Positions 43,597 to 46,813 of a DNA stretch of 64,000 bases are shown here, piece by piece. The notes below the pieces were generated by a model, which made no database searches, was not told the origin of the DNA, and saw nothing but the letters and a program-made list of their open reading frames with translations. Positions within the stretch are counted from its first letter, which is position 1. Each line of letters begins with the position of its first letter. The position numbers were made by a program, and so were the translations under genes. Source of the DNA: SAR202 cluster bacterium bin87. GTDB lineage: Bacteria; Chloroflexota; Dehalococcoidia; Lucifugimonadales; UBA3495. The DNA lies in the NCBI GenBank assembly GCA_002238825.1, contig MPNC01000007.1:1-64000 (forward strand), given 5' to 3'.

Positions 43597-45168
43597 CTAC
43601 TCGCCTGGCTGATAGACCTCGGTGTCCGGGTGGTACTGGAACCATCCAAACCAGAAGGAAGTCAGGCTGGGGATGCGGGGCAAAATCTCCGACGGGTCGG
43701 CCTGATTGACCAGCCCGGTTTCGGTGGTCTGCCACTGGACGCCGTTTTCATCCACCAGGACGGATGGCGTAGCATCGGGTTGGTCGGAGGCGGGCAGGCT
43801 GAATACTGTGTCGCCGCGCTCGTAAATGCGGCCGGCCCTGGAGTCGGGAGACGCGACGACGACCACGTTCAGGTCTCCCAGCGTGTCGTTGATCAACCGC
43901 ACCTGTTGCAGGTCTACGACGCTGTATGCTTTGGCGCTGTCGCCGATGGACAGTCCCACGATCACCGCCTTCGGTTCAAAAGTGACGTCCCGATTCCAGA
44001 CCGGGAACATCACCTCATCCGAGGTGAAATAGTCGTAGTAGATGGCGCGGGGATCGTTTTCGGGCACGTAGAAATCGGGTGGGTAGATATCGGTGTTCCG
44101 GTCCAGCACCGTGGTGTCCGGATGCTCCTCCAGCCATTCCTCCCAGGTGGTCACCACCGAAGGAAAGAAAGGTTGCCTGATGCCGGAATCGGCCAGGGGG
44201 CCGATGACCGGTTCGCCGATGAACTGGTTCCACAGTGATCGGGTCGCTCGGTCGTACATGACCTTGTTGCTGCGGTAGAGGAGGCCGGACGTCCCAAAGG
44301 TGGTCGCTTCGCCGTTGACGATGCCGGAATACACGATCCCGGTGCCACATAGCGTTCAATACACCAGCGAGATCGGTTCACCGCCCAGCACGTCGTTGGC
44401 CAATTCGTGGGCGTTCATAATGCGCAGCGGGTACGCGCGATGCTCCCCGTTGATGGACACGCCAAACACCCGATCCCCGGGCCACAGCCAGGTCGCCTGC
44501 TCGGGCAGGATGTGCGGCGGTTGCTCCAACGGGGGGATGCCATCCAGCCGCACGCCGCCCCAGACCACCTCCGTGAGGTCAACCCGCGAACGGGTGATGC
44601 CCGGTTCCAAGATCGCACCGATGGCGGGGTCGATCACTGCCAGGGAATCAACCTTCCACCGCGGGTAATCGGAAGGCGGGGCGTATTCATCCATGCGGGG
44701 CCCGACCCACTCCCGCCACAAGCGGCGGTCGAGATCGAAGTCCTGGCCGGTCAGCGCGGTCAGGGTTTTGATGGACTGGCGGGCCGCATCCAGGTTTCTG
44801 AAGAACTTTAGCGCTTCCAGAATTACTATGACCTGGGATTTATCCAGGTACTTTTCGGTGTCCGCCAACGCATCCAGGGTGGTTTCCGAGGGGTGATCCA
44901 GGCCGTGCCAGATGCGGAACATGGTCCGGTTGGAATCGTAGGAGACCGCGGTTGGCTCTGCCACGGGAGCGGGACCGGAAGCGGTCGCCTGCTGCGTGGG
45001 GCGCACCGCCGTCGCTGCCGGTTCGGCGGTTGGCACCGGCGGCGGCAGAGTTAAGGCGGGGTCGTCCGGTGGCGCGGACGCCTGGCGCGCGCAGGCCAGG
45101 GAGAGCAAACCGGCCAACAACAGCAGATAAGCGATTGTTCTGATCAACTGAGATACCTTGTTCAGCAC
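43597..45168 (-). CDS. DUF3179 lipoprotein with in-frame TGA: predicted selenoprotein
   Basis: Two frames (45168-44356 and a second ending at 43597) are in the same phase and joined by one TGA at 44358-44356, giving 523 residues. The N-terminus has a signal sequence ending LLSLACARQ, a lipobox-like site, then a Pro/Ala/Thr-rich linker; the rest is DUF3179, with GVSINGEHRAYPLRIMNAHE before the TGA and TFGTSGLLYRSNKVMYDR after it. The family normally reads TYCPLCGTG; here it reads VY-TGA-TLCGTG, so TGA replaces the first Cys of the CxxC motif (residues 271-274). A hairpin at 44342-44324 fits a bacterial SECIS. Function of the family is unknown, but UxxC suggests redox chemistry outside the membrane. 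If not recoded, the gene is a broken pseudogene. Confidence 0.7.
44324..44342 (-). promoter_or_regulatory. Candidate bacterial SECIS hairpin
   Basis: In the mRNA, CCGGGAU pairs with AUUCCGG (7 bp, one G-U) around the 5-nt loop CGUGU. The stem begins 13 nt after the UGA and the loop 20 nt after it, within the 16-37 nt window of the bSECIS consensus, and G is at the second loop position. It lies inside the coding sequence, as bacterial SECIS elements do. SelB binding is not demonstrated. Confidence 0.5.
44356..44358 (-). other. In-frame TGA codon, predicted selenocysteine site
   Basis: On the minus strand the codons read GTG TAT TGA ACG CTA TGT GGC: V-Y-U-T-L-C-G. The TGA stands where DUF3179 proteins have the first Cys of CxxCGTG. 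Confidence 0.6.
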
Positions 45169-45217: not shown

Positions 45218-45847
45218 TCACGATGCCGGCGAGCTGTGCTGCCCGACTTTGATGATGGTAACGCGATCTGGCAACCGGGAACCGGCTCGCTGGAGTGCTC
45301 TGGTGAAACCCCTCACGTCGATCACATACAACTCCACGCGGTTCTCGGGAACGTTGATGCCGGACTCCACCGGCATCCCGGTGGCGGACGCTACCATATG
45401 GGCTTGTCTCTGCGCTTGTTTCAGGTACCGCAGGGAAACCCGGGCCTTGTGCGCCTTGATGATTCCCGACAGGTTAGTGTCTTGCACGTAGGCCGCCAGG
45501 GTGGCTTCAGGGTTTTCGGTGAACAGCACGGTCACGCCAAATTCCGGTTCGTGGTGGATCCACAAGCCAGCGAAGGTGTCGGGTTCTCCAGAACTGATCT
45601 CAGCATCCAATGGCCCGATTTGGTCCTGTACCGTCAATCGGCAGATGGCTTCCTCGACGCTGACCCCGAAATCTGCTGCGTAGAATTGGGCATCCTGCGC
45701 TAAAGCATCGGTGGCTGGCAAGGGCGGACAGGTCAGTGATGAGGTTGAGTCTGTTCGAGATGGCGGAACGGCCGACAGGACGAAGGCTGCAATTATGATT
45801 ACGGCCAGAATGCTGCTGAGGATGTATAACCGGGGTGAATTCGGCAC
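45218..45847 (-). CDS. Membrane-anchored protein resembling a serine-protease prodomain
   Basis: The 209-residue protein has one N-terminal hydrophobic segment (about residues 7-27) and a periplasmic or extracellular domain. The pattern DTFAGLWIHHEPEFGVTVLF and GMPVESGINVPENRVELYV resembles the inhibitory prodomain of alpha-lytic protease/streptogrisin enzymes. No chymotrypsin-like protease domain follows, so it is a stand-alone prodomain-like protein, perhaps an inhibitor or a truncated zymogen. It is encoded 50 bp upstream of the DUF3179 gene on the same strand and may share a transcript. The homology is recognised by eye. Confidence 0.6.
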   Translation of the reverse strand: MPNSPRLYILSSILAVIIIAAFVLSAVPPSRTDSTSSLTCPPLPATDALAQDAQFYAADFGVSVEEAICRLTVQDQIGPLDAEISSGEPDTFAGLWIHHEPEFGVTVLFTENPEATLAAYVQDTNLSGIIKAHKARVSLRYLKQAQRQAHMVASATGMPVESGINVPENRVELYVIDVRGFTRALQRAGSRLPDRVTIIKVGQHSSPAS

Positions 45848-45946: not shown

Positions 45947-46357
45947 TCAGTCGGCCGCGGCGGCGGCTTCGGCGGCCGCGTACCACTCGGGGCCTTCCTG
46001 TCCCGGCTCGGGCAGAACGAAGCCGCCCTCCATAGTCCAGGAGGCAGGGTTCTCCGTGATCCGGCCAGGGATGTTATCGGGAGAAACGTTCGCGACCCGT
46101 GCGAAGGCCTGGGTCAGGTCGGACAGAAGCAGCTGCTTGACTTCCTCGGACCGGCCGGCGCGGTTGCCGCCGTCCAGGAAGTAGCCTTTCCCGTGCTCGT
46201 GGGTCTGGCCCTCGGGCGTCTCCAGGAAGGTGACCGACACGAAACTGCGCGGCGCGCCGGTTGAGCCGCAGTGGATGTCGGTGAAGGCCAGAGCGATCTC
46301 CTGCCTCTGGTCAAAGGACAGGGCGTTCTCGGGTATGAAACAGCGATAGTGCGGCAT
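45947..46357 (-). CDS. Tautomerase-superfamily protein with N-terminal Pro
   Basis: The ATG at 46357 follows AAGGAG; the upstream extension overlaps the next gene and is dropped. The 136-residue protein begins MPHYRCFIPENALSFDQRQE, so after Met removal Pro1 is available as the catalytic base of the 4-oxalocrotonate tautomerase superfamily (cis-CaaD-like group). Such enzymes isomerise or dehalogenate unsaturated acids. The C-terminus is Ala-rich. It is paired with a second tautomerase-fold gene 28 bp upstream, so the two may form a heteromer. Confidence 0.75.
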   Translation of the reverse strand: MPHYRCFIPENALSFDQRQEIALAFTDIHCGSTGAPRSFVSVTFLETPEGQTHEHGKGYFLDGGNRAGRSEEVKQLLLSDLTQAFARVANVSPDNIPGRITENPASWTMEGGFVLPEPGQEGPEWYAAAEAAAAAD

Positions 46358-46385
46358 GGTCTGCTCCTTGTGCCGAATTGTTGGG

Positions 46386-46715
46386 CTAGTTGTCGCGTCG
46401 GTCGCGGGCGGACACGACCAGTTCGTCGGTGGTGCAGCCGGTGAGGTCCATCCACATGTCCTGGATGGACTGCATGAGCTCCACGCGGGTTTCCTGCTGC
46501 AGGCCCGGGGGTATCTCACCGCGCACGGCGGACGTGGTGGACAGCCGACCACCGCGGAAGCCGAAACCGTGGGGGATCTCAATCCAGTTGACGGATACCT
46601 CGTCGGGGTTGCCGCCCACGAAACCCGTGGTAATGCGGGCCAGTTCCGAGGCCAGCCTGGGACGGATGTCTTCGGGGACAATCCCCTCCTGGATGGTGCA
46701 GTTGAACGTGATCAT
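46386..46715 (-). CDS. Tautomerase-superfamily-like protein lacking Pro1
   Basis: The ATG at 46715 (GGAAGG upstream) gives 109 residues. The strand-helix pattern ITFNCTIQEGIVPEDIRPRLASELARITTG and VNWIEIPHGFGFRGGR (shown in parts) is tautomerase-like, but residue 2 is Ile, not Pro, so the usual catalytic N-terminal proline is missing. It probably partners the Pro1-containing protein encoded next. It is divergent from the DUF2277 gene with about 98 bp between the starts. Confidence 0.7.
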   Translation of the reverse strand: MITFNCTIQEGIVPEDIRPRLASELARITTGFVGGNPDEVSVNWIEIPHGFGFRGGRLSTTSAVRGEIPPGLQQETRVELMQSIQDMWMDLTGCTTDELVVSARDRRDN

Positions 46716-46813
46716 CGACCCTTCCGAACGCGACAGATGATTGTTCCGGCAGGGTAACATAGCGTCCAGCAACGCGGCAATCGTCACTGTCGCTGCACAC
46801 AGGAGACAACCAC

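Follow-up and report, generated by a model that had tools for sequence, protein, structure and literature searches.

A predicted DUF3179 selenoprotein with a UxxC motif and a bacterial SECIS hairpin in a SAR202 cluster bacterium of the Chloroflexota

In the draft genome of SAR202 cluster bacterium bin87, a DUF3179 gene on the minus strand seems to be interrupted by a stop codon. As judged from sequence comparison, the gene is almost certainly intact, and its single in-frame UGA is very probably translated as selenocysteine (Sec) by the usual bacterial route. Annotation is liable to treat a gene of this kind as a damaged or shortened lipoprotein, though it would represent a complete selenoprotein. 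The window studied here is the whole analysed stretch of 64,000 nucleotides (contig MPNC01000007.1, positions 1 to 64,000), and its genome is designated G000. The features of the window discussed below are the following.

45168..43597, minus strand: DUF3179 selenoprotein gene (predicted), GTG start at 45168, stop at 43599-43597, 523 residues, Sec at 271
44358..44356, minus strand: in-frame UGA, read as Sec (U271), the first residue of UxxC (U271-T-L-C274), in a column shared with relatives
44324..44342, minus strand: putative bacterial SECIS hairpin, 7-bp stem, loop CGUGU at 44335-44331, based on folding and on comparison across relatives
43621..44544, minus strand: DUF3179 domain (profile match), two tandem repeats, UxxC in the first and absent in the second
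45086..45168, minus strand: N-terminal lipoprotein-like signal (LLLLAGLLSLAC), read from the sequence, with a similar hydrophobic stretch ending in Cys in orthologues
45218..45847, minus strand: 209-aa protein of no Pfam or NCBIfam family, with an N-terminal hydrophobic stretch, about 50 bp upstream of the selenoprotein gene on the same strand

Under the standard code, translation of 45168..43597 (minus) gives 270 residues up to the TGA and then continues in the same phase, while reading TGA as a residue results in a single protein of 523 aa, in which the only TGA is codon 271 (44358..44356; context GGEPISLVY-U-TLCGTGIVYSG). This agrees with the first-pass annotation, which described two same-phase halves joined by one TGA at VY-U-TLCGTG; its coordinates were right as well, and the strand, which it left unstated, is the minus one. 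The plus-strand frame at 43597-45168 was considered and rejected as a gene.

Since TGA is one substitution away from TGC and TGT, and the window comes from a draft assembly (4.96 Mb, 67 contigs), the codon might be a true stop in a pseudogene or a miscalled Cys codon. We regard this as exceedingly improbable, because the orthologue is present in 13 of the 14 genomes of the window’s genus, all 13 with the TGA, which also occurs in separate assemblies: the TGA-bearing named orthologues span several accession series, and a single sequencing error is thereby excluded. Moreover, purifying selection is similar on either side of the codon. In comparison with four close orthologues (dS 0.7-0.9), dN/dS amounts to 0.06-0.08 for the part before the TGA and to 0.09-0.11 for the part after it, and more distant orthologues are constrained on both sides too, a pattern not expected of a dead second half. 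The window’s orthologues carry no other frame-breaking mutations, which would have counted against the Sec reading. The third argument against a pseudogene or an error is the retention of the SECIS element only where the TGA is present, as described below.

The distribution of the TGA form was analysed in 60 relative genomes, of which 45 have DUF3179 and 41 of these have the TGA form. selA was found in 39 of the 41, and the two genomes without it are MAGs of 67% and 71% completeness. The alignment of homologues that had been proposed to see whether TGA or Cys is kept at this codon gave one column occupied by UGA in 65 distinct genes and by Cys (TGC/TGT) in 40, and Cys is indeed a normal residue of this position, as the annotation had supposed. 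Within the aligned domain of same-order relatives, every in-frame TGA falls on that column and none elsewhere. Orthologues from nine Sec-type Chloroflexota MAGs (Dehalococcoidia and others) are 63-87% identical to the window protein in the best segment, over most of its length, and the orthologue from a Cys-type SAR202 MAG shows 45% identity and the motif CVLC; the ten named relatives are partly the same records as genomes among the 60. In 121 genomes drawn from across the phylum, the TGA is absent from the majority of DUF3179 genes, apart from a few in other classes. A separate case is a DUF3179 gene from another Chloroflexota class (G156:C73:386425-387361), in which a TAG, a TGA and two overlapping matched pieces point to what is probably a pseudogene or a frameshift. 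In viral contigs, no relative was found by the patterns searched.

The search for selA, selB, selC and selD that had been recommended for this genome recovered all four: selA (544 bits against a cut-off of 268), a full-length selB (353 bits against 242), selC (tRNA-Sec with the anticodon TCA) and selD (373 bits, L024:1474-2571). The last has its own active-site UGA in HCAGUAAK, Sec-containing SelD being a known kind. As selA is above the cut-off in 55 of the 60 relatives, the G000 copy does not represent a stray contig. The absence of the machinery, which would have told against Sec, is therefore not observed. The complete sel set also argues against a general reassignment of UGA (to Trp, Cys or Gly) in this organism with selenium uninvolved. 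A frame that is open under TGA read as a residue is compatible with such a reassignment, but TGA terminates other G000 genes, for example the DUF3179 paralogue L001 after VVYPATG (L001:2467-2469), which contradicts it directly, and the recoded TGAs fall on Cys/Sec columns (UxxC of DUF3179 and TlpA-like proteins, SelD). We give this explanation practically no credence.

The hairpin downstream of the UGA is exactly as the first-pass annotation described it (7 bp, 5-nt loop, 13 and 20 nt, G at loop position 2). Positions 44342-44336 pair with 44330-44324 around a five-nucleotide loop with G in its second position; the stem begins 13 nt and the loop 20 nt after the UGA. For a bacterial SECIS element, the published limits are a loop of 3-9 nt, a stem of 4-16 bp, G in the first two loop positions, a spacing of 16-37 nt and MFE of at most -7.5 kcal/mol (PMC13188914), and the window hairpin lies within all of them (loop 5 nt with G in second place, stem 7 bp, spacing 20 nt, MFE -9.8 kcal/mol). 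The suggested check of the mRNA fold thus gave the expected hairpin, yet its stability is ordinary (z = -0.72 against shuffles), and all seven pairs are formed by 3.3% of synonymous recodings of the window gene alone. A single hairpin is unremarkable by these measures, and its significance arises only through the comparison of relatives.

In this comparison a stem of six pairs (positions 17-22, in either of two registers one base apart, picked after inspection, with the identical choice allowed to the null model) is complete in 45 of the 65 distinct UGA genes, which share ancestry and so do not represent 45 independent cases, while 300 synonymous recodings give a mean of 1.1 and a maximum of 5. 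It is complete in none of the 40 Cys genes, in which pairing stays at the recoding level (3.42 vs 3.34 pairs). At least eight different stem sequences occur across the UGA genes, the subfamily stems including CCGGAAU/AUUCCGG, CGGGCAU/AUGCCCG, CCGCCU/AGGCGG and CCGGUC/GACCGG, and the pair 18:34 is seen as CG, GC, UA and AU among relatives. The second base of the five-base loop is G in all 65 UGA genes, and in 36 of the 40 Cys genes as well, so the protein code partly explains this G. These data favour the early proposal of a SECIS-like element.

We suggest that SelB and Sec-tRNA-Sec would read the UGA at 44358..44356 as Sec, the hairpin 13 nt downstream directing the insertion, and the second half of the protein would be made in this way. 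In bacteria, Sec insertion at a UGA has to compete with termination, and the UGA might for this reason serve as a switch, the 270-residue N-terminal half being functional under selenium shortage. This is very improbable: such a product is without most of DUF3179, and selection downstream of the codon is about as strong as upstream. Most probably, the codon serves for the synthesis of the full-length selenoprotein.

The match of the Pfam profile PF11376 (DUF3179) to this protein extends over residues 209-516, on both sides of the TGA, scores 245.7 bits (cut-off 27) and takes in profile positions 2-292 of 292. The two halves of the domain are homologous to each other (profile comparison: probability 99.5%, E 4e-23): RAYP...ND..GG.P...-U/C-xx-C of the first repeat aligns with KAYS...ND..G..NVVVVASP of the second, which has no Cys at the motif and in several relatives carries Asp or Glu there. 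This comparison points to a tandem duplication in DUF3179, with U/CxxC apparently lost from the second repeat. Since the repeats are homologous and the motif is kept only in the first, one active site would be present within the duplicated unit, the second repeat probably being structural or substrate-binding.

Ahead of the domain, the N-terminal hydrophobic signal ends in Cys, with a lipoprotein box that is imperfect relative to the consensus, and is followed by a Pro/Thr/Ala-rich linker; hence, we infer that the protein is probably exported and lipid-anchored. A helical region at about residues 79-201 is seen in the predicted model with low confidence. AlphaFold, run with 11 sequences, gave a mean pLDDT of 59 (whole protein) or 57 (isolated domain), with low values around UxxC. 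No Foldseek match with E below 0.1 was found for the first low-confidence model, no solved homologue in a sequence search of PDB and no NCBIfam model matching the protein; neither Pfam nor NCBIfam gave a match to thioredoxin families, and DUF3179 was the only family found.

From the UxxC motif, the Sec/Cys exchange and the export signal, we lean towards U271 and C274 being the thiol/selenol redox centre of an exported oxidoreductase. Most likely, Sec and the Cys three residues on (UTLC) would form a reversible selenenylsulfide, acting as a redox centre outside the cytoplasm. The other possibility, to which we assign a clearly smaller but real weight, is that Sec is inserted and the two residues bind a metal or other cofactor, the protein being no thiol oxidoreductase. 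All three G000 paralogues share Glu, Asn and Asp residues next to the motif (E120, N123 and D124 in L003 numbering), and no thioredoxin-type profile or fold was found (the models are of low confidence). However, the nearby His (NAHELAND) is replaced by Arg in L003, so a His ligand is not general, and the repeated exchange between Sec and Cys is typical of redox residues. In addition, one paralogue adjoins a gene for a TlpA-like UxxC redoxin, though such a neighbour stands beside only 2 of 16 genes of the paralogue’s clade (strict pattern, short flanks); the idea of a constant TlpA-like partner of DUF3179 was dropped. A bolder reading, which we put forward tentatively and at somewhat below even chances, is that DUF3179 represents a family of exported selenoenzymes with a non-thioredoxin fold, two repeats, one active UxxC and several Sec gains or losses within one Chloroflexota order. 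If true, its reaction would be new to selenoprotein biology.

The evolutionary variability of the site is evident within G000 itself: of its three DUF3179 genes, the window gene (UTLC) and L001 (UPLC) have UGA, and L003 (CPLC) has Cys. At least four Sec/Cys changes are required by a tree of 103 domains; the clade of the window gene comprises 36 Sec and 2 Cys forms, and L001 belongs to a Sec clade nested among Cys forms. The Sec subfamilies of this lineage are UTLC, UPLC, UPIC and UIKC. The unusual UIKC, instead of UPLC or UTLC, was observed in the DUF3179 gene L131 (G014:C19; ITYUIKCSSG). With many genes of either form, and both forms even as paralogues of a single genome, the lineage is a rich natural resource for comparing Sec with Cys in a domain without an assigned function.

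DUF3179 with the motif UxxC/T is listed as a predicted prokaryotic selenoprotein family (PMC9312934 Table 1; PMC13188914), the former source crediting the entry to Zhang & Gladyshev 2007 and an Olavius algarvensis symbiont. The first-pass annotation, which was not aware of DUF3179 as an established selenoprotein family, was therefore wrong with regard to prediction, and novelty of the family cannot be claimed. The published entry shares with our gene the Pfam family (PF11376), the UxxC motif type and the replacement of the family Cys by Sec. Compared by table entry, it differs in being one row per table of deltaproteobacterial symbiont origin, while several Sec subfamilies are present here in Chloroflexota (Dehalococcoidia). 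The Cys-type DUF3179 proteins (CPLC, CVLC) have the same domain, the duplicated architecture and the second motif Cys, and differ in TGC/TGT at the site and in having no SECIS-like stem in any of the 40 genes. The exported thioredoxin-like UxxC selenoproteins (AhpC-TSA/TlpA type) resemble the window protein in the export signal, UxxC and Sec/Cys exchange; the likeness is one of working only, as no sequence relation of DUF3179 to thioredoxin families was found. Three points are new as far as our literature search goes: the subfamilies in Chloroflexota, the test of the SECIS across relatives and the duplication inside the domain. The search revealed neither a paper combining SAR202 with selenoproteins nor an experimental study of a DUF3179 protein. 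Selenoprotein use is hereby recorded for a SAR202-related lineage of the Chloroflexota (Dehalococcoidia).

In the window, the gene for the 209-aa protein is syntenic in 4 of the 10 named relatives (L057, L058, L059, L066), with 65-76% identity. Downstream of the selenoprotein gene lies an MFS transporter gene, which was not found in the 3-kb flanks of relatives. Two overlapping frames at 45947-46787 on the minus strand (45947-46681 and 46386-46787) are highly conserved in relatives; identity of the longer one jumps near residue 102 (L057, L058), so the true start probably lies downstream of the mechanical one.

Elsewhere in G000, an AhpC-TSA/TlpA-like gene is located directly after the second DUF3179 selenoprotein gene (L001:2479-3192; G000:C42, about 645.3-646.0 kb). 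It carries an export signal at the N-terminus and one TGA in frame, in WAPWUPHC, matches Pfam AhpC-TSA with 82 bits and is a candidate for a further selenoprotein. A second TlpA-like gene, 44% identical, has one in-frame TGA (L148; G000:C32:485468-485740, minus). Counting the TlpA-like genes, two DUF3179 genes and selD, G000 probably encodes five or more selenoproteins.
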